IMG/VR virus record: IMGVR_UViG_3300021964_005135
Coordinates: 1 to 23,789 of that record
DNA from: a virus
Direction: 5' to 3' (one strand)
Length of the DNA: 23,789 nt
In this document: in pieces, positions 10,717 to 23,326 of the stretch
How positions within the stretch are numbered: the stretch's first letter is position 1
Layout: each line of letters starts with the position of its first letter
Position numbers and translations under genes: made by a program
The notes under the pieces: generated by a model
What the model saw: the letters and a program-made list of their open reading frames with translations, nothing else
What the model was told of the DNA's origin: nothing
Database searches by the model: none

Positions 10717-11667
10717 ATGAAAACCTTCAAATCTTTATACGAGGAATTAGATTTCGCACCCACCCACTCATTAAGTTTATCAGAACTTATTTTTACTAGG
10801 GCAGAAGGTGGATCAGATATGTCAGCCACTTCAGCAAGAAGAGGTGGGCCCGGTTCGCCAGCAAATCATATGTGGCTGCCTCTATCTGGTTCTATGTTTA
10901 AAAGAATATTCCCGAAGGAAGTTAGAGCAACAGTTTTTCATGTAACAAGAATGACTAGTTTTGATCAGTTGTATGAAATTCAAAACTCAAATCGTTCCAT
11001 ATCTGCATTTACAAATATGGATAGAACACCTATTGTTACAGGTGTACAGGGAGGTAGTGGTCTTGTTATTGAACTGGAAGGAAACATTCTTGCATCAGCA
11101 AAAGAAGACCTTATGTCTATTCCCGAAACATCTGGTAGAAGGATGCTTGGTTTTAATTGGTTCAGAGGTCCGTGGGGTTCCGATGATGTTGCGAAAATGC
11201 AAAAGGGTCTTGAAATACTATTGAAAGTATTAATCAAAAAATATGGAAAGGCCTTTGGTGGAGATGCACCAAAAGGTAAAGATGATTTTGACAAATGGAT
11301 GCACATGCATGTGACATATAAAAATTCTAAAGTAAAGAATGCTGGTAGGATAATGCAATCTCTTATAAAGGATTATTTGGATGGTGTTGAGAAAGTATTC
11401 AAAAAAAATTCCACACAGGTTCAGAATACATTGACTCGTTATATGCAACGCCGCAAAACTGATGATAACTGGGATGAGATTGTAATTGATGATTTTGAAA
11501 TCAAAAAGATATGGATAATAGAGGATGCAGATGAAATGGTGTCTGGTGCTGCTGAAGAGTTTAAATCTAACATAACATCTACAAAATTACCAGTTGAGAT
11601 TATTAATGCCCAGAACATGGAAGCACATGTAAGGGGTGTTGCAATGAAAGCTACAGGTAGGTCATAA
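10717..11667 (+). CDS. Leader-bearing protein of unknown function, possibly ADP-ribosyltransferase-like
   Basis: This 316-aa protein begins MKTFKSLYEELDFAP, a capsid-targeting-type leader (LYE|E could be the cut site). The mid region reads ATVFHVTRMTSFDQL, then NRSISAFTNMD and GGSGLVIELEG. A histidine strand followed by an S-x-S-x-F-T strand recalls the donor-binding core of some ADP-ribosyltransferases, and T4 packages such an enzyme (Alt) in its head. This is a weak pattern match, so the activity is only a hypothesis. The C-terminal half is helical and lysine-rich. It starts 8 bases after the previous stop and its own stop overlaps the next ATG (TAATG). Confidence 0.55.
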   Translation: MKTFKSLYEELDFAPTHSLSLSELIFTRAEGGSDMSATSARRGGPGSPANHMWLPLSGSMFKRIFPKEVRATVFHVTRMTSFDQLYEIQNSNRSISAFTNMDRTPIVTGVQGGSGLVIELEGNILASAKEDLMSIPETSGRRMLGFNWFRGPWGSDDVAKMQKGLEILLKVLIKKYGKAFGGDAPKGKDDFDKWMHMHVTYKNSKVKNAGRIMQSLIKDYLDGVEKVFKKNSTQVQNTLTRYMQRRKTDDNWDEIVIDDFEIKKIWIIEDADEMVSGAAEEFKSNITSTKLPVEIINAQNMEAHVRGVAMKATGRS

Positions 11668-13271
11668 TGATAACACAATCAGATTTAAATCAGGTAGAGA
11701 AGTTTGCTGATCGGCTGTTCGCAAAGGTTGGTATTGATGTTGAGTTCACTCGACACTTTATGGACAGGGTGAATGATGCTCGTAATAAGAAAGCTATCAC
11801 ACCTTCTGAACTGACTCGTCTATTCAAGCAGTCTTATTCCAAGTATGGTAAAAAGATAGCACAGCTTGGTCCTGATGCTGAAGCTGTTATCAATGACATG
11901 AAGACGAATATCAATATGCCATTTGTCCTCAACCTCAAAGGAAATGAGTTGGAGTTGGTGGCAAAAACTGTTATGCGTAAGAAAGATTTCAAGACCTCTG
12001 GTCCTAAGTTGTCTTTTGAACAGTTTAGTAATTGTTCACCTTTTGTTCTTTTAGAAGATAAGGGCGGTAAGAACCTTCACCTAGAACATCTAGAGGATGA
12101 AATCCTTAACTATGGTGTTGATGGTGGTAGAGCTGCACTTGACTTCCTGCGTTCTCTACGAGATATGTTAGCGGGTTCTGCACGTTCTAGTGTAAACATG
12201 ACGGTTAAGTGGGACGGTGCGCCAGCAATCTTCGCTGGTGTTGAACCAGAGACAGGTGACTTTTTTGTGGCCAAGAAATCTGTGTTCAACGTCTCACCCA
12301 AATTATACAAGACCACAAAAGAAATTGATGATGATTTATCTGGAGCATTAAATGAAAAGTTTAAAGTTGCACTTAAAGAGTTTTCTAAGTTGGGTATCAA
12401 GGGGGTACTACAGGGTGACCTCATGTTCACTGACGATGTGGAAACAGAGACTATCGATGGCGTCAAGTATTATACTTTTCAGCCTAACACTATTGTCTAT
12501 GCTATACCTGTTGATAGCGTATTAGGTAAGACTATCAACAAAGCAAAAGTTGGTATTGTCTGGCACACCACATATACAGGCGACACCCTACAGGGTATGA
12601 AAGCATCATTTGGTGCAGATATTAAGGGGTTAAAAACCCCATCAAGCGTTTGGATGGATGATGCAACCTATAAGGACGCATCTGGTAAGGCAACATTTAC
12701 TGCTAAAGAGACAGAACAAATCACTGCTATACTATCACAAGTTGGTAAAACTTTCAATAAGATCAATGCGAATGGGTTGCGTAAGTTCCTTACTGTGCAG
12801 AACGGTATGACGGGTGCGATTGCTGGTGCATCTCTCAAGACTTACAATAACTCAAAGGTTCGTGCGGGTGAGAAGATTAGTAATCCTGCCGCACATGCAA
12901 AGGGTTATGAGAAGTGGGTGTTTGACTCTATCCAGAAACAGATTGACAAGGTTAAGAGTGACAAGGGTAAGAAGAAATACACTGACATGCAGAAAGAGTA
13001 TGGCCGTGAAATAAAAAAACACACTCAAAATCTAACACAGATCATCACCTTCCAGAACCTATTGGTTGATGCGAAGATGCAAATCGTTAATAAACTAAAT
13101 AGTGTAAAGGGTTTGACCGATACTTTTATTAAGACCTCAAATGGATTTAAGGTGACAAATCCCGAAGGATATGTTGCTATTGACAGAATAAGTGGTGGTG
13201 CAGTTAAACTGGTGGACCGTATGGAGTTCTCGTTTAACAACTTCACAGCTGTCAAAAATTGGATGAAATAG
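11667..13271 (+). CDS. ATP-dependent ligase-superfamily nucleotidyltransferase with extra N-terminal domain (DUF6267-like)
   Basis: This 534-aa protein contains ligase-type nucleotidyltransferase motifs: motif I KWDGAPA with candidate AMP-accepting K181, motif IV-like LQGDL (Q249-L252), and motif V-like AVKLVDR (K514). It resembles a protein family common in T4-like marine phages, containing GGKNLHLEHLEDEI (about 137-150), which I recall as DUF6267. Residues 1-105 form a separate domain (FTRHFMDRVNDARN... ELELVAKTVMRKK) whose pattern recalls small RelE/BrnT-like toxin folds (low confidence). The boundary LSFEQF (about 114-119) looks like an old leader, suggesting fusion of two once-separate proteins. 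Substrate (RNA, DNA or other) unknown. It starts in a TAATG overlap and abuts the next ATG. Confidence 0.7.
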   Translation: MITQSDLNQVEKFADRLFAKVGIDVEFTRHFMDRVNDARNKKAITPSELTRLFKQSYSKYGKKIAQLGPDAEAVINDMKTNINMPFVLNLKGNELELVAKTVMRKKDFKTSGPKLSFEQFSNCSPFVLLEDKGGKNLHLEHLEDEILNYGVDGGRAALDFLRSLRDMLAGSARSSVNMTVKWDGAPAIFAGVEPETGDFFVAKKSVFNVSPKLYKTTKEIDDDLSGALNEKFKVALKEFSKLGIKGVLQGDLMFTDDVETETIDGVKYYTFQPNTIVYAIPVDSVLGKTINKAKVGIVWHTTYTGDTLQGMKASFGADIKGLKTPSSVWMDDATYKDASGKATFTAKETEQITAILSQVGKTFNKINANGLRKFLTVQNGMTGAIAGASLKTYNNSKVRAGEKISNPAAHAKGYEKWVFDSIQKQIDKVKSDKGKKKYTDMQKEYGREIKKHTQNLTQIITFQNLLVDAKMQIVNKLNSVKGLTDTFIKTSNGFKVTNPEGYVAIDRISGGAVKLVDRMEFSFNNFTAVKNWMK

Positions 13272-16200
13272 ATGCGTAGTTTTAGAGATATCACAGAGGC
13301 TAAAGAAACTGTTGTATTTGGATTCGGGCGATTCAATCCAAGCACGATTGGGCATGAGGCCGTTATTGAAAAGATTGCTTCTGTAGCAAAGGGCAATCCA
13401 TTCTTCATATATCCTTCACATACTACTGGACCTAAAGACCCCCTAAAGCACTCTTTGAAAATTGCGTGGATGAGGAAGATGTTCCCCAAGTACAAGAAGA
13501 ACATTATTGTAGATAATAAGGCTAAGACTGTCATCAACATTGCTGAGAAACTATACAAGGATGGTTATAAAAATTTAATTCTTGTGGTGGGAAGCGATAG
13601 AGTAAAAGATTTCGATGCCCTATTACAGAGATATAATGATGCACCAGACAAAAAAGGTAATCAGTTATTCAAATTTGATTCAGTCAAAGTGGTATCTGCT
13701 GGAGAGCGTGATCCAGACGCAGATGGCGTTGCCGGGATGTCTGCCAGCAAACTCAGAAAGGCAGCATCAGATGGTAAGTTTGATGATTTCAAAAAGGGTA
13801 TCCCCAATACATTGAACGACGCCGATAAGAAGAAATACTATTTTGACGTTCGTAAGGGAATGGGTATTCGTGAAGATCGTGAAATGGGTGATGACTATGA
13901 TTCATTGCGTGACGCATACCTCACAGGTAAAATCTGGAACGTGGGTGAAGTTGTAGAGGCAAACGGTGTCAGTGGTGAGGTTGTTCGTAAGGGTACAAAC
14001 TATCTCTCATTCGTAGCAGAGGATGGCAAGGTTCATAAGGCATGGTTACATGAGATTGAACTTGATGAAAATGCAGTTTATGATAAAGCAAAGTCTGATG
14101 GTGCTAAAAAATATAAAGATAGTCTTGGTGGTGAAGAACCTCTGACAGCAGCAAAATCTCCCTTACAGAAATTGAAGGACTTTGACAAGTCCAGAGTTGC
14201 CGCAGGGAAACCACCCATATTTACAGACAAGAAACCACCTAAGTTTATTCGCATGAAGAAGTCTGGCCAGATGACAATCATGAATGTCCCTACTGATGAG
14301 ATTGATAAATTTGAGAAGAAGGGTTATGAGATCATTGAAGACCTTGTTGGTGTAAAACCAATGAGTGGACCTACAGGACAAATCTTTGCATTGAAGTCTG
14401 AAGAAGTTGAACTTGATGAAGACGCTTCTGTATATAAAAAGACTGCAAGAAAAAATAAAAATGACGTTACATATGCTTTTGGTAGAACTAAAAAACTAGA
14501 TGGCCAACCAAAAGAAAAGGGTGGATATTGGGTTTGGAAATTGTCGAAGAATTATGATGGAAAAGTTCGGGGTGGTATTAGAGACTCATGGGTATATGTT
14601 GACAAAGATTTATCTTATTCTGATGCTGTCAAATTAATGAATAAAAAACTTGGACGCAAAGAATTTAAAGAATCAGTTAAGGGTAAGGATGTTGGATATC
14701 CAGATGAATCCGTGAAGATTGGTAAGAAACACTATATCATCTACAAAGGTGGTAGAGAATGGTATGGATATGAAGTAGACAAAGAGGGAAACCAGCTTGG
14801 AGACTCAGTGTTTGATCCTAAAAAGAGTGAACTGATAAAGATTCTCGCACAAGAAGGTCTTGATGAGCGCAACTACGCTAAAGAATATGCGAACTACCAA
14901 GGAACACCAGAACAGATTGCTCGCCGTTCTTCAAGGAACAAGGCTCGTAGGGCAATGGGTGACAAGGCAGTTAAGGGTATGGACGTTGGACATAAAGACA
15001 ACAACCCAATGAATAATGACCCGAAGAACCTACGCATGGAGAAACCATCTGACAATCGTAGAGAACCACGGTTGCGTGAAGAAGATGAACTTGATGAGAT
15101 GGCATGGTATAAAGTAGCACTAGCAAAAATTAGTCAATTGAACCACCCTAAAGATTATGAAAAAATGGTCAAACAATATGCGACTGATATGAAAAAACCA
15201 GAACTAAAAAACAAGACTGCTTCTTATATCGCAGCAAGGATTGCCCAAGAGTATAAGGGTCAGGACGGTAGAAAACTTGTTCAGTATATCAACAAACTGG
15301 TTGATGATGGTAAACTCCCCAAAGAACTCAAGGCAGAATATCAAGAAGAAGAAACAATGCAGACCTTTAGTGATTTCGTTAAACAGATCAATGAAGTCAA
15401 ACAGGACAAAGATGTAGATGATAAGGATGGAACACAACCAGCAAAGTACTATGCTGGTGATATGGCCAAGTCTACCAAATCCAAGAGGGATGCACACTTC
15501 AAAGCAAAGAAGGCTGGTCCTGCTCCCGGCGATGCTTCTGCAAAAACTAAACCATCCACACACACTAAGAAGTTCAAACAGATGTATGGCGAAGCGTTAC
15601 CTAAAGATGCAGATCAAGGTGATTACATCGATGATTTCGAGAAGTCAGATGCACCACAGTTTAGGGGTAAGTCTAAAGAGAAACGCAAGGACATGGCTAT
15701 CGCTGCATACCTCTCAAAGAATGAGTCTTTCCTAGATAACGTCAGTAGGATGTTGGGTGAGGATGGTCACACTGATGTTGCGTCTATGAAAAATAAGGTT
15801 CAGATTGCTCAAAAAGCATTGATGAAGATGCAAGGTGAACTGACTAAACTTGGTGATGAAGATGATCTACCTACATGGTGGACAAACAAGGTTGCAACAG
15901 CAGTATCTCGTTTGGATGACATGTCTGATTATATTGACACTCAGGTTGAAGATGTGCAACTAGACGAAAAGATTGAAGGTCTGGTGAAGAAGGCAGATAA
16001 GTCTGGTATGCCATACTCTATTCTCAAGAAGGTATATGATCGTGGTATGGCAGCATGGAAAACGGGTCATCGTCCCGGCACCACACCACAACAGTGGGCG
16101 ATGGCGAGGGTCAACTCGTTCGTGACAAAGAGTAGTGGCACTTGGGGTAAAGCAGATAAAGACCTAGCAAAACAGGTTGAACAGATAGAAGAAGCTTGTT

Positions 16201-16544
16201 GGGTTGGATACAAACAGGTTGGTATGAAAAAGAAGGGTAATAAAGAAGTGCCCAATTGTGTACCAGAAGAGAAAGAATTAAATGAGTGGGGTGAGATTGA
16301 GGAAGAATCAGAATATCAAGGTCGTAAAGTCACTCTAAACAAACCCACAAAGGGTGATGTTAAAAAGTCCAAGGTGTATGTCAAGAATGAAAAAGGCAAT
16401 GTAGTCAAGGTCGAGTTCGGTGATCCTAACATGCAAATCCAAAAAGACATTCCATCACGAAGGAAAAGCTTCCGTGCTCGACACAATTGTGATAATCCCG
16501 GCCCAAAATGGAAAGCAAGATACTGGTCATGCAAAGCATGGTAA
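13272..16544 (+). CDS. Large internal-head polyprotein: nucleotidyltransferase, KOW-like, HNH-like and several small domains
   Basis: This 1090-aa protein looks like a chain of domains separated by (I/L)-x-E sites. Leader MRSFRDITE|A (1-9). Adenylyl/cytidylyltransferase domain to about 205, with GFGRFNPSTIGH (17-28) and SASKLR (157-162). KOW/SH3-like segment ending IELDE266. Lysine-rich module ending EEVELDE383. Two beta-rich modules ending GLDE532. HNH-like module VGHKDNNPMNNDPKNL ending DELDE609. Helical module to about 695. An embedded leader MQTFSDFVKQINE at 696. A conserved DLPTWWTNK helical domain ending VQLDE899. A domain resembling DUF5824 (900-974, ending IEE|A). A cysteine-containing module (CWVGYKQVG). 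A basic C-terminus RRKSFRARHNCDNPGPKWKA. I infer cleavage by a gp21-type prohead protease. It starts directly after the previous stop. Confidence 0.8.
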   Translation: MRSFRDITEAKETVVFGFGRFNPSTIGHEAVIEKIASVAKGNPFFIYPSHTTGPKDPLKHSLKIAWMRKMFPKYKKNIIVDNKAKTVINIAEKLYKDGYKNLILVVGSDRVKDFDALLQRYNDAPDKKGNQLFKFDSVKVVSAGERDPDADGVAGMSASKLRKAASDGKFDDFKKGIPNTLNDADKKKYYFDVRKGMGIREDREMGDDYDSLRDAYLTGKIWNVGEVVEANGVSGEVVRKGTNYLSFVAEDGKVHKAWLHEIELDENAVYDKAKSDGAKKYKDSLGGEEPLTAAKSPLQKLKDFDKSRVAAGKPPIFTDKKPPKFIRMKKSGQMTIMNVPTDEIDKFEKKGYEIIEDLVGVKPMSGPTGQIFALKSEEVELDEDASVYKKTARKNKNDVTYAFGRTKKLDGQPKEKGGYWVWKLSKNYDGKVRGGIRDSWVYVDKDLSYSDAVKLMNKKLGRKEFKESVKGKDVGYPDESVKIGKKHYIIYKGGREWYGYEVDKEGNQLGDSVFDPKKSELIKILAQEGLDERNYAKEYANYQGTPEQIARRSSRNKARRAMGDKAVKGMDVGHKDNNPMNNDPKNLRMEKPSDNRREPRLREEDELDEMAWYKVALAKISQLNHPKDYEKMVKQYATDMKKPELKNKTASYIAARIAQEYKGQDGRKLVQYINKLVDDGKLPKELKAEYQEEETMQTFSDFVKQINEVKQDKDVDDKDGTQPAKYYAGDMAKSTKSKRDAHFKAKKAGPAPGDASAKTKPSTHTKKFKQMYGEALPKDADQGDYIDDFEKSDAPQFRGKSKEKRKDMAIAAYLSKNESFLDNVSRMLGEDGHTDVASMKNKVQIAQKALMKMQGELTKLGDEDDLPTWWTNKVATAVSRLDDMSDYIDTQVEDVQLDEKIEGLVKKADKSGMPYSILKKVYDRGMAAWKTGHRPGTTPQQWAMARVNSFVTKSSGTWGKADKDLAKQVEQIEEACWVGYKQVGMKKKGNKEVPNCVPEEKELNEWGEIEEESEYQGRKVTLNKPTKGDVKKSKVYVKNEKGNVVKVEFGDPNMQIQKDIPSRRKSFRARHNCDNPGPKWKARYWSCKAW
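14400..14420 (+). repeat. Divergent copy of the EEV-x-LDE spacer repeat
   Basis: This 21-base segment of the 1090-aa polyprotein encodes EEVELDE and differs by one internal base from the six-copy repeat in the next gene (GAA instead of GAC at its fourth codon). Related shorter copies are at 14052-14069 (EIELDE) and 15078-15098 (EEDELDE). The shared DNA between two adjacent genes could let modules move between them. Confidence 0.75.
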
Positions 16545-16584: not shown

Positions 16585-18654
16585 ATGTCAAATTACAGAA
16601 AAACAATGGCCGATGCGCTGCGAGAGATGTATCCTCTTACAGAAGAAACACAGATTGATGAAGCTACAATGAGTTCTTCTCAGATTGCGAGGTTGAAGAA
16701 GGCATATGAACCTATGCGTGATAAGAAAATCAGTACATCAAATGCTGATAAACTTAGCGCAATGATGGACAAGGTGGGTAAAGACAAAGAAGCACTTATC
16801 CAGTTGTTCAAGGCAGATATTCCTTTCGTGAGTCAAAGCGCAGTAACAAAACTTATTACCAAGCACAATATGAAGGGTGCTGAGATTAATAAGTTGCGGG
16901 AAGAAGTTGACCTTGATGAGGTAGGTGGTTCTGCGTTTGGTGGAACGATTGATAAAATTCAAAAGGTTGTTGATGACAAACAAGCAACGAAGATTGATGG
17001 TGTAATGGTTGATACATTTACCGCATCATTAATTATGAAAATCTGGAACGGGGTGAGCAAACAAAATCAAGACAAGATGAGGAAAATGAAAGTCACTCAA
17101 CTTGCTAAGACAGCATATAAATTGGCAGGAATGAAAGAAGAAGTTGACCTTGATGAAGGAACAAAACAGGTTCTTGCTCACGGTGGTAAAGGTAAGTATA
17201 AAGTAACCAAGGATGGCGACAAAATTGAAATTAAGTTCGGTGGTAAGGTAGTTGGAACTGCTGACTTTGACCGTGGTGCTGACAGTTTCTTCGTAAGTAT
17301 CAAAGGTGAGAGGGGTCAGAAGTCTTTTGACGATGCACAGGCAATTGCTGATTATTTCGCAAAGAACAAGATTACAGAAGAAGTTGACCTTGATGAAGGT
17401 AAGATGAACAATGCGACGATGCAAGCAAACAAACCAAGGATTGAAAAAGCAAAAAAACTTATGGGACCATCTACAAGTAGAAAAGAAGGCATACAGATGG
17501 TTGCAAAGGGTATGCCCACTTCAGAAAAAGAGGCTACTAAACTGGTTGATACAGTTATAAAGATGATGCAGAAAAATGATTATGTCCCAGAAGAAGTTGA
17601 CCTTGATGAAAATCTCAATGAAATAAAAAAACATATTGATGATCTTGAGTTTGAGCGCAAGCGTATGACAACCAGCGGTCAGGAATCTTTAGATAAACTC
17701 ATTAAGGCAAAAAGTATAAAAGATGCCAGAAAAGCATTTGATGACATGTATGGATACGAATATGACAGAGTTACATCAAGTGGTCAAGAGAGTATGGTTA
17801 AGATTGGTAAAATGTTGGGTATGAAGATGGAAGAAGTTGACCTTGATGAAGATAGTCTTGATGATTTTCAAGACTTTGCCCGTCTTTATGGTGGGGGTGA
17901 TGAAATTTATGTTGTAACTCAAGGAAAAGATTCTAATTCACTAAAAGTTATTGGTATAGAAAAAGACCCAAATAAAGCAAAGAAAATCCGTGATCGTGCT
18001 AAAGGTGCGAGAGCAAGTCTTTGGGGTCAGATGAAAAGTTCTCAAAAAGTTCTCAAACTAAAAATTGGTGATCCTGTTAGTTTTGAAGACTCCAAAAATA
18101 AATTATCTTTTATTGAAGAAGTTGACCTTGATGAAGGTAAGATGTCTCAGTTGCACCAGTATATCAAAGACAAGAAGAGCGCAGAAGAGATTGCGAAACT
18201 GATGAAGTTGGATGTCAAAACAGTTAAGTCACTGATGAGCAGTCATCATCCAGAGGATGTTGAAGAGGGTGCTGCAGCTGATGCTCGCCGTGCAATGCGT
18301 GCTGATCCAGATATGCGACAGAAGTTCTCAAAGGATGTTTCTGCAACTGATGATGACGTAAAGGGCGCATCAAAGAATATTATGATGCAGATGCGAAAAG
18401 CACAATCACTGAATGGTCGTTTCGATGTTGAGTTTGCTGACGGTAAGAAAGTTAAAATTCCTGCGAAGATGGCTATTGCAGTTCAGCAGAAATACAATTC
18501 TATGAAAAGACCCGCAGAGAAAGAAAAGTTTCAGGCAAAAATTGGAAAGTCTTACAAGGATATGTTGTCTGCACTTAAAGAAGAACTACAACCCAAGAAA
18601 GAATCAATCCTAGAACGGATGAATAGAAAACTCAAGGAGAATAAAGATGGGTAA
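16585..18654 (+). CDS. Modular internal-head polyprotein with six EEVDLDE spacers
   Basis: This 689-aa protein consists of a leader ending QIDE26|A and seven modules separated by six identical EEVDLDE spacers at residues 106-112, 185-191, 265-271, 336-342, 416-422 and 511-517. The first six modules are 71-95 residues; the last is about 172. LDE followed by G, V, N or D fits the (I/L)-x-E cleavage consensus of T4 gp21. Module 1 is helical (PFVSQSAVTKLITKH). Module 3 (192-271) is beta-rich. Module 5 has an internal repeat (TSGQES / SSGQES). Module 7 starts with an HTH-like stretch (SAEEIAKLMKLDVKTVKSLM) and ends basic. None has an obvious catalytic motif. I infer a precursor cut into small packaged proteins. 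AAGGA precedes the ATG; the end overlaps the next gene by 8 bases. Confidence 0.8.
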   Translation: MSNYRKTMADALREMYPLTEETQIDEATMSSSQIARLKKAYEPMRDKKISTSNADKLSAMMDKVGKDKEALIQLFKADIPFVSQSAVTKLITKHNMKGAEINKLREEVDLDEVGGSAFGGTIDKIQKVVDDKQATKIDGVMVDTFTASLIMKIWNGVSKQNQDKMRKMKVTQLAKTAYKLAGMKEEVDLDEGTKQVLAHGGKGKYKVTKDGDKIEIKFGGKVVGTADFDRGADSFFVSIKGERGQKSFDDAQAIADYFAKNKITEEVDLDEGKMNNATMQANKPRIEKAKKLMGPSTSRKEGIQMVAKGMPTSEKEATKLVDTVIKMMQKNDYVPEEVDLDENLNEIKKHIDDLEFERKRMTTSGQESLDKLIKAKSIKDARKAFDDMYGYEYDRVTSSGQESMVKIGKMLGMKMEEVDLDEDSLDDFQDFARLYGGGDEIYVVTQGKDSNSLKVIGIEKDPNKAKKIRDRAKGARASLWGQMKSSQKVLKLKIGDPVSFEDSKNKLSFIEEVDLDEGKMSQLHQYIKDKKSAEEIAKLMKLDVKTVKSLMSSHHPEDVEEGAAADARRAMRADPDMRQKFSKDVSATDDDVKGASKNIMMQMRKAQSLNGRFDVEFADGKKVKIPAKMAIAVQQKYNSMKRPAEKEKFQAKIGKSYKDMLSALKEELQPKKESILERMNRKLKENKDG
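16900..18135 (+). repeat. Six-copy 21-base coding repeat (EEVDLDE)
   Basis: GAAGAAGTTGACCTTGATGA plus a final A or G occurs at 16900-16920, 17137-17157, 17377-17397, 17590-17610, 17830-17850 and 18115-18135, all in the same reading frame. Only the last base varies (G in the first copy). Glu, Val, Asp and Leu codons could all have drifted without changing the protein, so DNA identity beyond protein need suggests recent copying, gene conversion or use as recombination seams. Confidence 0.95.
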
Positions 18655-19318
18655 GAAATATTTTGACACAAAGGCCGAAACCCTTGAATCTTCGATTCTA
18701 GGTATTTGGACAGAAGCAGCTAAGAAGGTTGCTGAAACCAATAAGAACAACAAGTCTGATGATGGTGAGGGGTTGGATGCAGTTCAACCAAAAGCAGTCA
18801 AGAAGAAGTTCAAGGATCGTAAGGACAAGGACATCGACAACGATGGCGACACTGATGATTCTGATGAGTATCTTCACAATCGTCGTAAGACAGTATCTAA
18901 GGCAGTAAAAGGTAAAGTAAAGGATGAAGGTAACGCATTTGGAATGGCACTAAAGGCTGCCAAAGACAAGGGCGAAAAAACTTTCGTTGTTGCTGGTAAG
19001 ACATATGAAGTCAAAGAAGGTTTCGCAGTACCAGAAGATGTTCCTGCAATGGAAGTCGGTACAGACCGTTATCGTGAATATGCTGTTGGTCTTACGCCCG
19101 GTGAAAATGCTGAGTTTGCAGCTGCACAGGACTTCAAGGTTGCTTCAATGAAGGAAGCACTTGCAAAAGTTTGGGGTTTGGACGAGAAAGCACTTGACAA
19201 ATCCTCTAAAGAAGAGTATGATGAAGAAGATGAGGAGCTCAAACCCGTTAAAGGTTCAAAGACCATGACAGGTGGAAAAGTTGCTAAAGTGGATACTAAA
19301 CCCAAAATTGATGGTTGA
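18647..19318 (+). CDS. Acidic leader-bearing virion protein with an EF-hand-like calcium loop
   Basis: This 223-aa protein is not an enzyme by any motif I can see. The N-terminus MGKKYFDTKAETLESSILG, followed by IWTEAAKK, is of a kind I recall from structural proteins of marine T4-like phages; ESSILGIWTEA supplies a possible prohead protease site. Residues about 60-75 read DIDNDGDTDDSDEYL, a D-x-D-x-D-G-D pattern like EF-hand or dockerin calcium loops. The middle (AFGMALKAAKDKG... KTFVVAGKTYEVKEG) is repeated-looking and soluble, and the C-terminus is Glu/Lys-rich and probably disordered. It overlaps the polyprotein end by 8 bases (ATGGGTAA), implying coupled expression. Confidence 0.65.
   Translation: MGKKYFDTKAETLESSILGIWTEAAKKVAETNKNNKSDDGEGLDAVQPKAVKKKFKDRKDKDIDNDGDTDDSDEYLHNRRKTVSKAVKGKVKDEGNAFGMALKAAKDKGEKTFVVAGKTYEVKEGFAVPEDVPAMEVGTDRYREYAVGLTPGENAEFAAAQDFKVASMKEALAKVWGLDEKALDKSSKEEYDEEDEELKPVKGSKTMTGGKVAKVDTKPKIDG
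19194..19222 (+). promoter_or_regulatory. Possible intragenic sigma70 promoter for the HAD gene
   Basis: TTGACA (19194-19199), 17 bases, TATGAT (19217-19222), inside the 3' part of the previous gene and about 98 bases before the chosen start of the nucleotidase-like gene. The match is good, but it lies in low-complexity coding sequence rich in Lys/Glu/Asp codons, so chance is possible. Confidence 0.4.
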
Positions 19319-21453: not shown

Positions 21454-21606
21454 ATGGTTGAAGTTTTATCAGAGGTAAATTGGGGCAAGGCAATCGAACC
21501 TGTCACCAAAGTTTTTACTAAGAAAAAAGAAGAACCTAAATTCCTTGAAGAACAAATTAGAGATTACTATCCCTGTGACGTAGAACCGAAGGACGAAGAA
21601 AAATGA
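21454..21606 (+). CDS. Small 50-aa protein of unknown function
   Basis: The frame encodes MVEVLSEVNWGKAIEPVTKV and continues to PCDVEPKDEEK (50 aa). It is preceded by GGGAG (21443-21447), 6 bases before the ATG, and its stop overlaps the next start as ATGA, the local operon style. It is charged, with one NWGKA segment and a C-terminal acidic tail; no membrane segment is seen. Close packing and overlap are the main support. Function unknown. Confidence 0.6.
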   Translation: MVEVLSEVNWGKAIEPVTKVFTKKKEEPKFLEEQIRDYYPCDVEPKDEEK

Positions 21607-22052
21607 AAACATTTAAGAAATTCGTATCCGAAGAAACTTTAGACGAAGCCACATTTCAGACAACTATTGCTTCTCTAAACCAAGACATTCCAACAGGTGA
21701 TTATTCTGATCCCAGAGTTGTGAAGGCGCTTAATTCTTTCGTGGGTACAGTGGCAAGAGCTACAATGGACGGAACAATGATCCCTGAGATGGTTGTTGGT
21801 AAGATGAGAAATTCTCTAAGTAAGATTGGACTAACCTTTGGTGAAGTCCCAATGATGGAAGGTGAAAGTGGTTCCTTTGATTTACCCCTAACCAGTTTTG
21901 GTGGTCGTTTCGGTAAAGGTTTGGATACGCCATTTGATGAGTTTGAAGCAGATGACGGTATCTCGCATCAAGTAGAGGGTGGTCTAAAACTAGTACTAAA
22001 TTATGAAATGCAAGAGGATAATTCGTGTAGGTTGACTGCTTCTATTCAATAA
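21603..22052 (+). CDS. Leader-bearing small virion-type protein, function unknown
   Basis: This 149-aa protein begins MKTFKKFVSEETLDEATF, one of the clearest capsid-targeting-type leaders in the window; LDE|A (residues 13-16) fits the prohead protease consensus. After this leader the protein is acidic and soluble (PTGDYSDPRVVKALNSFVG, then GLKLVLNYEMQE near the end), with no catalytic motif I can name. I infer that the mature protein is about 134 aa and inside the head. Its start overlaps the 50-aa gene (ATGA) and the next gene begins one base after its stop. Confidence 0.65.
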   Translation: MKTFKKFVSEETLDEATFQTTIASLNQDIPTGDYSDPRVVKALNSFVGTVARATMDGTMIPEMVVGKMRNSLSKIGLTFGEVPMMEGESGSFDLPLTSFGGRFGKGLDTPFDEFEADDGISHQVEGGLKLVLNYEMQEDNSCRLTASIQ

Positions 22053-22416: not shown

Positions 22417-23030
22417 TGGGAAGAGCTATAGACTTATTTGTTACATACAGGTTCATAAAACTGCTTGTAACACCATTTGACCAGATGCCTGCTTTTAAAC
22501 TGGGTATTATCGATAAAGACGGTCAAAGAGTGATGGAAAAGACTGTTTCCCGTGGTATGCAACCCACTGACCTCAATACTGCTGAGAAGAAGAACGCATA
22601 CACTGTTCTTCACAAACTCGTATTCAACATCAAAAAGATTTTTGGTAAGGTGCCCGGACTTAGGACTAAGTTGGGAACCTATGCTGCAGCCCTGTTCCTA
22701 CTGAAAGATACATTCAAAGAACACGTTGAAGACCCTGATATTTTCGAGAAGGAGTTCATGAAGTATCTCAAAGAAGAGGGATACGAGATAGACAACACAA
22801 TTTCAGAGGAAGTCATTGGATTTGGAGAGGTACTCCCCAAGGGAGAGTACACTCTAGTCAATGATATCCTAAATAGTGAAGAGGAAGAATTAACTGCTAA
22901 GAAGGGTGACAAGGTAGTTGCGTTTGACGATGAAGCACCGTTAGATACAATTCTTGGTATTGACATATTTCCTATTATTCATGTTAAGACACAAGAAAAA
23001 ATATACGTCAGTTTGGAAGACATAAAATGA
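22416..23030 (+). CDS. Conserved-type phage protein with C-terminal beta domain, function unknown
   Basis: This 204-aa protein begins MGRAIDLFVTYRFIKLLVTPF and continues with a helical domain (KKNAYTVLHKLVFNIKKIFG, then GTYAAALFLLKD), a layout I recall from T4-like cyano- and marine phages. Residues about 130-204 form a second domain (GFGEVLPKGEYTLVNDIL, then KKGDKVVAFDDEAPLD) that looks beta-rich. The final residues KIYVSLEDIK are nearly duplicated as a 15-codon ORF 343 bases downstream (23326-23373). It begins in a TAATG overlap and ends overlapping the next ATG (ATGA). Confidence 0.6.
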   Translation: MGRAIDLFVTYRFIKLLVTPFDQMPAFKLGIIDKDGQRVMEKTVSRGMQPTDLNTAEKKNAYTVLHKLVFNIKKIFGKVPGLRTKLGTYAAALFLLKDTFKEHVEDPDIFEKEFMKYLKEEGYEIDNTISEEVIGFGEVLPKGEYTLVNDILNSEEEELTAKKGDKVVAFDDEAPLDTILGIDIFPIIHVKTQEKIYVSLEDIK

Positions 23031-23032
23031 AA
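22986..23032 (+). repeat. Left copy of a 47-base direct repeat
   Basis: This copy covers the last codons of the 204-aa gene (KTQEKIYVSLEDIK and stop) and the start of the next gene. It aligns to 23329-23375 with five mismatches and no gaps. The longest identical stretch is ATATACGTCAGTTTGGA. The repeats bracket the 99-aa gene. Confidence 0.85.
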
Positions 23033-23326
23033 AGCTATCAAAAATTTATGCAAGAAGTCTATAAGTTGCAGCTCATTCGAGATAAATCTATGGACGTTTT
23101 AAAAATTACTGATACTAAGAACCCAAAGACTAAGATAGAAGTTCGTGGCAAAAAGGGTTACGAAATTGATGGATATGACAAAAAAGATAGACTACATAGT
23201 CTTTTAGATAAAATTGGAAAGTCTGCAAACATGAGCGATCTTGTGAATGGAGAGGTTGTGAGTATCAATCCTAAACACCCAGACGCAAGAATGGCGAACA
23301 AGACCCTTGATAAGATTGCAAAATAA
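23027..23326 (+). CDS. Leader-bearing 99-aa basic protein, function unknown
   Basis: MKSYQKFMQEVYKLQ is very close to the T4 internal-protein leader MKTYQEFIAEA; MQE|V may be the cut site. The rest is basic and hydrophilic (lysine-rich, with PKTKIEVRGKKGYEIDGYDK). The C-terminus has a short MSDLVNGEVVSINPKHPDARM segment. It is likely a small packaged protein. The gene is exactly bracketed by a 47-base direct repeat, suggesting that it arrived or was copied as a unit. It overlaps the previous gene by ATGA, and its stop overlaps a 15-codon ORF (TAATG). Confidence 0.6.
   Translation: MKSYQKFMQEVYKLQLIRDKSMDVLKITDTKNPKTKIEVRGKKGYEIDGYDKKDRLHSLLDKIGKSANMSDLVNGEVVSINPKHPDARMANKTLDKIAK

Follow-up and report, generated by a model that had tools for sequence, protein, structure and literature searches.

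The complete 23,789-base IMG/VR virus record IMGVR_UViG_3300021964_005135, analysed here at its full length and called the window below, comes from a T4-like marine phage, whose DNA polymerase finds its nearest match among phage records in Methylophilales phage Melnitz (62% along its entire length). Within it, a single open reading frame encodes a modular polyprotein of 689 amino acids in which the heptapeptide EEVDLDE recurs six times, and a preliminary description made from the letters alone had read this gene as seven modules joined by standard cleavable linkers. The six copies start at nucleotides 16900, 17137, 17377, 17590, 17830 and 18115, which bears out the spacings of 79, 80, 71, 80 and 95 residues given there, and the 20 bases GAAGAAGTTGACCTTGATGA are common to every copy. 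At base 21, copy 1 has G and the other five have A, so that the deviant at the DNA level is the first copy, at its final base, and not the last as had been stated. Were codons drawn independently according to the codon usage of the window, the probability that all six leading codons match across the six copies would be ~3.5e-10. An assembly artefact or chimera is ruled out, since a 100% identical 689-residue protein is encoded in two further contigs from different metagenomes.

Behind the N-terminal leader lies a variant of the linker, EETQIDE, and counting it divides the polyprotein into eight segments, the last of which holds two units that are found separately in relatives (Table 1). Modules M2 to M7 measure 64-88 residues. 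No convincing mutual similarity was found between the segments outside the linker, the best self-match (E ~0.02) being carried by the linker itself. That the modules differ in fold type holds for the two that were folded, out of seven or eight: AlphaFold2, run on a separate alignment with related cassettes for each module, gave five helices for M2 and six strands plus a helix for M4, both at the predicted local distance difference test (pLDDT) values listed in Table 1. A whole-chain alignment that included fragments was visibly misplaced and was dropped. Foldseek searches of PDB with the models of M4 and M2 returned nothing at E <= 0.001 (best 0.30 and 2.7), so no function is drawn from fold, and the M3 profile had a single match among solved structures, at E 0.73. 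At E <= 0.001 the 689-residue protein has no match among Pfam and PHROG families, and at E <= 0.1 none among PADLOC families; weak matches to DUF5801 (0.012), DUF3874 (0.06), phrog_38026 (0.054), phrog_30096 (0.055) and Sigma70_r4_2 (0.095, below the cut-off, on the helix-turn-helix-like unit of M8) were left unused.

Table 1. Segments of the polyprotein gene and neighbouring genes, with nucleotide positions in the window.
Feature	Position	Strand	Remark
689-residue modular polyprotein gene	16585..18654	+	single open reading frame
N-terminal leader MSNYRKTMADALREMYPLTEETQIDE, putative capsid-targeting-like propeptide ending in the variant site	16585..16662	+	targeting role putative
Variant linker/site EETQIDE	16642..16662	+	after the N-terminal leader
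Module M2, all-helical	16663..16899	+	AlphaFold2 pLDDT 91.9
Linker EEVDLDE 1	16900..16920	+	final codon GAG
Module M3, KIDGVMVDTFTASL family	16921..17136	+	biggest module cluster, 31 members by single linkage
Linker EEVDLDE 2	17137..17157	+	
Module M4, six strands and C-terminal helix	17158..17376	+	AlphaFold2 pLDDT 92.4
Linker EEVDLDE 3	17377..17397	+	
Module M5	17398..17589	+	partial relatives only: L149 60%, L096 42%
Linker EEVDLDE 4	17590..17610	+	
Module M6	17611..17829	+	nucleotide identity 99% in L010, 97% in L095; flanks at background
Linker EEVDLDE 5	17830..17850	+	
Module M7	17851..18114	+	no relative among proteins of the compared loci
Linker EEVDLDE 6	18115..18135	+	
Terminal segment M8: helix-turn-helix-like unit HQYIKDKKSAEEIAKLMK and C-terminal domain KNIMMQMRKAQS..KSYKDMLSALK	18136..18651	+	two units
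1090-residue modular protein, cytidylyltransferase/NMNAT-like domain followed by linker-bearing units	13272..16544	+	
223-residue protein with DKDIDNDGDxDxSDxYLxxRRK module	18647..19318	+	
Small protein with capsid-targeting-like start MKTFKKFVSEETLDEA (leader and LDE site)	21603..22052	+	role putative

Residues and codons at the linker

Related loci, cited here by L numbers, were gathered by protein search (29) and by exact match to the 20-mer (84 stretches), and the loci of a wider scan (L148-L261) were all included in the protein comparisons. The gp21 prohead protease of T4 is described as cutting after L/I-x-E (PMC9026906), and the linkers had been proposed to fit this consensus. Counting back from the final glutamate as P1, 871 distinct diverged counterparts of strict linkers, which were aligned within longer homologies and are not independent events, carry Glu at P1 in 81%, Asp at P2 in 76%, Leu at P3 in 76% with Ile in another 5%, and Glu at P7 in 82%. 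At the 134 sites with one change, the change falls once at P1, 15 times at P2, 7 at P3, 16 at P4, 65 at P5, 29 at P6 and once at P7; at the 72 sites with two changes, 12 of the 13 changes at P3 turn Leu into Ile. Sites with one to three changes retain [LI]xE in 226 of 255 cases, and both L and E are unaltered in 81% of them, against 57% expected under even change. The linkers thus show the L/I-x-E constraint of gp21 substrates, and their mutation pattern, as far as aligned sequences can tell, resembles the tolerance of gp21. Of 223 sites, 72 have Ala and 46 have Gly as the following residue (P1'), or 3.9 and 3.2 times background, and the sites at which gp23 and gp21 of such phages are presumably processed, at putative positions, read FLSE-A, FLTE-A, LLME-A, YITE-A and LIAE-A, with FLGE-I, LLNE-T and YVTE-A as others. 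Cleavage of the linkers by a prohead protease is likely, and as a prediction fits this evidence.

The leader follows the conserved pattern M[ST]xYxKTMxEALxEM, like that of T4 in type only, and stays constant while the payload behind it varies. Among 33 distinct leaders gathered by this pattern, which are related and not independent, 30 have [LIM]xE, with Met permitted at P3 beside Leu and Ile, ending at residues 14-28, or 26 if the count begins at residue 17 and so leaves out a site within the leader, at residue 14; 23% of equal-size windows elsewhere in these proteins hold [LIM]xE. An L/I-x-E site after the leader is found in T4-type internal head proteins as well, and in the polyprotein such sites are LTE, up to residue 20, and IDE, up to residue 26. 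In L167, MKSFKNHIEEVELDEAAPK stands at the N-terminus of a 367-residue frame, a full linker immediately after a capsid-targeting-like start, at the place of the T4 propeptide site.

At identical residues of diverged pairs, the same codon is used 1860 of 2063 times in linkers and 36388 of 62384 times in modules. Copies of the linker agree in their codons at 91% within a protein and at 85% between proteins, where codon usage would give 53.5%. Because many loci had been picked by the D-type 20-mer, the codon test was repeated on 84 EEVELDE sites, which had no part in that selection and show 90% agreement, with Leu written as CTT in 83 of 84 (25% in the window), and on relatives found by protein (L009-L035), whose 48 sites show 90.5%. 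The wider scan, which required CTN at Leu and was tallied over L148-L222, gave GTT at 51, CTT at 59 and GAT at 63 of 78 sites among the matches listed, and with this greater synonymous variety the peptide persists where the DNA has changed. If recombination through the linker is frequent, it would account for the uniform linker DNA as well as for the wider codon variety. E-type linker DNA, in L016 for example, contains AAGTTGAACTT, a palindrome about a central G, which is either chance or related to a recombinase.

Cassette exchange and the company of gp21

Under a loose linker pattern that admits chance hits, the loci from the protein and 20-mer searches, together with the window, hold 131 distinct frames with at least one linker, three of which bear seven, that of the window included if EETQIDE is counted. 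Their 369 segments, some of which may likewise stem from chance hits, were grouped by compact cores with two-sided coverage, and the 193 compact ones fall into 93 sequence groups; since 68 of these were seen only once, the module repertoire looks far from sampled. A first single-linkage clustering was dropped, having lumped 329 of the 369 segments because long segments contain several units.

The same modules recur in other orders and in other proteins. The order is M4-M2-M4-M8 in L016 (the M4 before M2 97% identical to that of the window in nucleotides, the one after it 82%), M3-M2-M8 in L024, and M3-M6-M8 in L010, where the other modules are missing; the M6 of L095 lies within a protein of a different start. 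M3 is 93-94% identical in nucleotides between the linkers in L025 and L024. Relatives of M2, at 35-99% identity, occur in polyproteins, in the proteins next to gp21 (L068, L058, L109, L100 and L061), in the MGKKY protein of L011 (91%) and in others, and the MGKKY protein of L115 contains M4 again. Compared as DNA, 11 of 12 module pairs are 82-100% identical and one is 70% identical, whereas 17 of the 19 flanks of 120 bases fall to 47-58% and the remaining two to 60-61%; unrelated stretches average 52%, with a 97.5th percentile of 58%. The linkers at these seams are often near-identical, and 5 of the 12 pairs have one linker or more with 7-13 mismatches in 21 bases, once because the counterpart is EETQIDE and once through a one-codon offset. 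Recent exchanges (at least 80% identity over 30-130 residues) have 222 internal ends, of which 47.3% fall at most 3 residues from a linker, against 9.0% expected. Taken as a sequence pattern, this almost certainly reflects exchange of cassettes at the linker. The comparison of related phages that had been proposed thus turned up modules gained, lost, duplicated and reordered, many of the seams falling at the linker, together with uniform linker DNA, as expected of a cassette system with a recombination seam, and neither module order nor linker is fixed.

The loci L007-L116 comprise 110 loci from 95 contigs. A gp21 gene lies in 19 of them, near-duplicates included, and each of these 19 has a same-strand linker-bearing frame whose end precedes gp21 by 254-393 bases. 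In short stretches picked by 20-mer, the nearness of a linker to gp21 follows partly from the selection; its constant place does not. The same phages do encode gp21: it is present in six of the 30 whole records searched, mainly the longer of the 95, most records being short fragments. In six contigs whose genes were read one by one (two pairs of near-duplicates among them), the linker-bearing gene, with 1-3 linkers, lies two genes before gp21 and after the portal gene, and the gp21-adjacent protein starts like MKTLKQLRKIQEAG, MKTIKQILET, MLSFKDLQEVLQ or an N-terminal extension of MLSFKDLQEVLQ. T4 has its core proteins gp67 and gp68 at this place before gp21. It is the relatives that hold this position between portal and gp21; the polyprotein gene of the window sits in a polymerase/cytidylyltransferase region and does not adjoin gp21.

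Homologues also connect these proteins with virions. In the corresponding block of cyanophage S-SCSM1, GenBank labels the products of seven of the nine genes 89-97 as virion proteins. These seven include the NMNAT-like gene 91 as well as gene 92, where KEEVELDERT is present and where inspection by eye shows the module of the 223-residue gene of the window, even though tblastn of that neighbour against phages gave no match. Mass spectrometry detected 45 proteins of S-SCSM1 (PMC9602691), S-CREM2 virions are reported to contain the products of genes 154, 155, 156 and 160, or four of the seven from 154 to 160 (PMC10665884), and a cytidylyltransferase is reported from S-SM1 virions (PMC3037559); the authors of the S-CREM2 and S-SCSM1 studies mention possible carry-over of abundant proteins (PMC10665884, PMC9602691). 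Judged by these homologues, head packaging of the polyprotein is likely.

Two units of the neighbouring 1090-residue protein are also encoded separately, by small genes that have their own leader. Its DUF5824 unit corresponds to a 91-residue gene in phage C48C1, with the start MITFKKYLEE, and to an 88-residue gene in L195, the remaining 32 occurrences in the loci lying within proteins of more than 400 residues, while its C-terminal unit is found in 6 small genes and 19 longer proteins. Since such units occur both free and fused, leader-bearing single genes and linker chains look like two formats of one cargo, as release by cleavage would predict.

Proposed head cargo and rival explanations

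We consider it probable that the polyprotein is the precursor of internal head proteins of the T4 type, a cargo-carrying chain that is cut by the prohead protease and whose linker serves as a recombination seam. The short N-terminal leader would bring the chain into the prohead core, and a gp21-type prohead protease would cut after the Glu of every [LI]-D-E linker, freeing seven or eight small folded proteins that would stay with the packaged DNA and could enter the host. The near-fixed linker DNA of this phage group would permit cassettes to be spliced in frame by phage recombination, and cargo would be gained, lost, duplicated, reordered and shifted among the polyprotein gene, the gp21-adjacent gene and similar genes. 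By analogy with T4 IPI, the modules would most likely be counter-defence or host-takeover proteins. A broader proposal seems to us evenly balanced between right and wrong: that marine T4-like phages keep an open, exchangeable repertoire of head cargo, with one leader, any number of cassettes and a linker that is protease site and seam at once, leaving module count, order and host gene free, so that new counter-defence sets could be assembled in frame by a single crossover and would reach the host together with the genome, all at equal dose.

Several results weigh against the cleaved-cargo interpretation. As many as 391 of the 871 diverged counterparts no longer fit the linker pattern, through loss or misalignment. 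The whole heptapeptide is conserved, beyond what L/I-x-E demands, and Glu at P7 is as fixed as that at P1 (one change in 134), and the published gp21 rule offers no reason for this. The small residues Ser and Thr are depleted at P1' (0.31 and 0.10 times background), and the P1' residues of the polyprotein itself are V, G, G, N, D and G. The protease site proposed for the linkers is indirectly supported by the L/I-x-E constraint, the frequent Ala and Gly at P1', the gp21-adjacent context and the virion labels of homologues, and the scarcity of Ser and Thr at P1' speaks against it. Across all homology ends of 80 representative proteins (high-scoring segment pairs of at least 30 residues and at least 50% identity), a linker is found no more than 3 residues away from only 27% of the starts and 30% of the ends, against 9% at random positions, and in just 6 of 59 recent exchanges does every internal end fall at a linker. 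The isolate counterpart of the polyprotein, HTVC008M gp132, has just the looser LEQLDEA, and the four S-CREM2 block proteins found in virions contain no strict linker. Neither gp21 nor gp22 was found in the record of the window, a fragment with only a gp23-like piece, the gp22 query having had no positive control; the phage's own protease was thus not read. Cleavage at EEVDLDE or release of free modules was not found in the literature searched (top-ranked results).

Three other explanations were weighed. The chain could be a disposable scaffold, a prohead core protein like gp22, gp67 and gp68 of T4 that is chopped by gp21 and expelled, its modules serving as assembly aids. The place of linker-bearing proteins just before gp21 and after the portal would suit this, as would the cutting of T4 gp22 and gp67 into several pieces (PMC9026906), yet both modules that were folded, M2 and M4, are predicted compact domains, the linker-bearing protein of S-SCSM1 gene 92 is labelled a virion protein, and hence retained material, the gene of the window is not adjacent to gp21, and the payload varies among relatives; we therefore hold a scaffold to be unlikely. 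We find it similarly improbable that the chain is packaged whole, as some polyvalent proteins are, with the heptapeptide acting as a flexible acidic spacer, a scaffold-binding tag or both. The conservation of all seven residues would fit such a role, and the virion RNA polymerase of N4 is described as packaged unprocessed (PMC5512222), but a spacer needs neither the sparing of Glu at P1 and Leu/Ile at P3 nor the frequent Ala or Gly at P1', as at a gp21-type site, and two units of the neighbouring protein are elsewhere free genes with their own leader. That the 20-mer acts at the DNA level only, as a recombination or homing site spreading cassettes with an incidental peptide, would agree with the uniform linker codons and with an HNH-like module among the neighbouring cassettes, but is very improbable, as the heptapeptide persists with other codons in the wider scan (CTN required at Leu) and L/I-x-E is mostly kept in mutated linkers.

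Read as cleaved head cargo, the polyprotein is best rated a variation on the internal-protein system of T4; its standard linker was not found in the literature searched. The T4 proteins IPI, IPII and IPIII are described as a short N-terminal leader, an L/I-x-E site and a small compact payload, with the leader kept while the payload diverges (PMC9026906, PMC3012670), and IPI* as a compact fold of 76 residues (PMC3012670). T4 has one payload per gene, whereas here several share a chain, the site is repeated as a standard linker and cassettes move at it. The core proteins gp22, gp67 and gp68 are likewise reported to be cut by gp21 at several sites (PMC9026906), and linker-bearing proteins hold the corresponding gp21-adjacent place; those, however, are degraded to peptides, and the chains here look like strings of folded domains. 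Polyvalent proteins also carry many domains per chain, are thought to enter the cell with the DNA and were likened to polyproteins by Iyer et al. 2017 (PMC5512222). The polyprotein shares with them several unrelated domains in one chain; their release is ascribed in that account to embedded peptidase domains and their effector domains are recognised (PMC5512222), whereas the Pfam, PHROG and PADLOC searches recognised neither effector nor peptidase domains in this chain, and its sites fit a separate prohead protease. In the giant phages phiKZ and SPN3US, several head proteins are cut after a short Glu-ending motif by gp21-like proteases (PMC9026906), and the accounts compared mention neither a standard linker that repeats nor any shuffling of cassettes. 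The preliminary description had named no known system of this form, and a literature search, confined to top-ranked results and mostly excluding subscription papers, found no description of such a linker-cassette system; nor did it find the heptapeptides in phage papers, one unrelated food paper being the match. If true, the interpretation as cleaved head cargo would show how a phage swaps whole sets of packaged proteins without frame breaks and without a promoter and targeting signal for each. The linker would then be a sequence handle for pulling unannotated small head-cargo proteins, possible counter-defence factors among them, from marine viromes, and the chain a ready format to load several proteins together into T4-type heads.

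Gene order and neighbouring genes

By eye, the gene order matches gp127-gp134 of Pelagibacter phage HTVC008M and genes 16-22 of Melnitz: a DUF6267 protein, a cytidylyltransferase-like protein, the polyprotein, a DKDIDNDGD protein and a 5'-nucleotidase, with small extra genes interspersed. Also read by eye, the positional counterparts of the polyprotein gene are HTVC008M gp132 and Melnitz gene 20, which are shorter (372 and 462 residues) and share the leader type; Melnitz gene 20 has one related linker, EEIEIDE, and Melnitz gene 21 carries EEVELDE. Relatives of the 223-residue gene, which start with MGKKYxxTK, hold linker-bounded modules too (L011, L115).

The 1090-residue protein upstream has the sites EEVELDE (14400), EEDELDE (15078), EDVQLDE (15948) and EEKELNE (16266). 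Its cytidylyltransferase/NMNAT-like domain (13272-14090) has relatives repeatedly reported in cyanophage virions, and a role in NAD repair at infection is possible. From residue 354, at 14331-14471, a gp23-like stretch GVKPMSGPTGQIFALKS (Pfam Gp23, E 1.3e-5) reaches the EEVELDE linker, an arrangement found otherwise only in L029 among the compared loci; the virion protein gp160 of S-CREM2 has another gp23-like stretch. An HNH-endonuclease-like unit (~14950-15105) ends at the EEDELDE linker and is flanked by linkers on both sides in L036, and it might be cargo or an aid to cassette movement.

The DUF6267 protein (11667-13271) contains KWDGAPAI, which we take to recall the KxDG motif of nucleic acid ligases and which would presumably suit a packaged repair enzyme. 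Leaders of the MKTFKxF..E type begin five genes of the window, at 80-1165 (MEKFKSFITEA), 10717-11667 (MKTFKSLYEE), 13272-16544 (MRSFRDITEA), 21603-22052 (MKTFKKFVSEE) and 23027-23326 (MKSYQKFMQE), and the record may therefore encode many head-cargo proteins.

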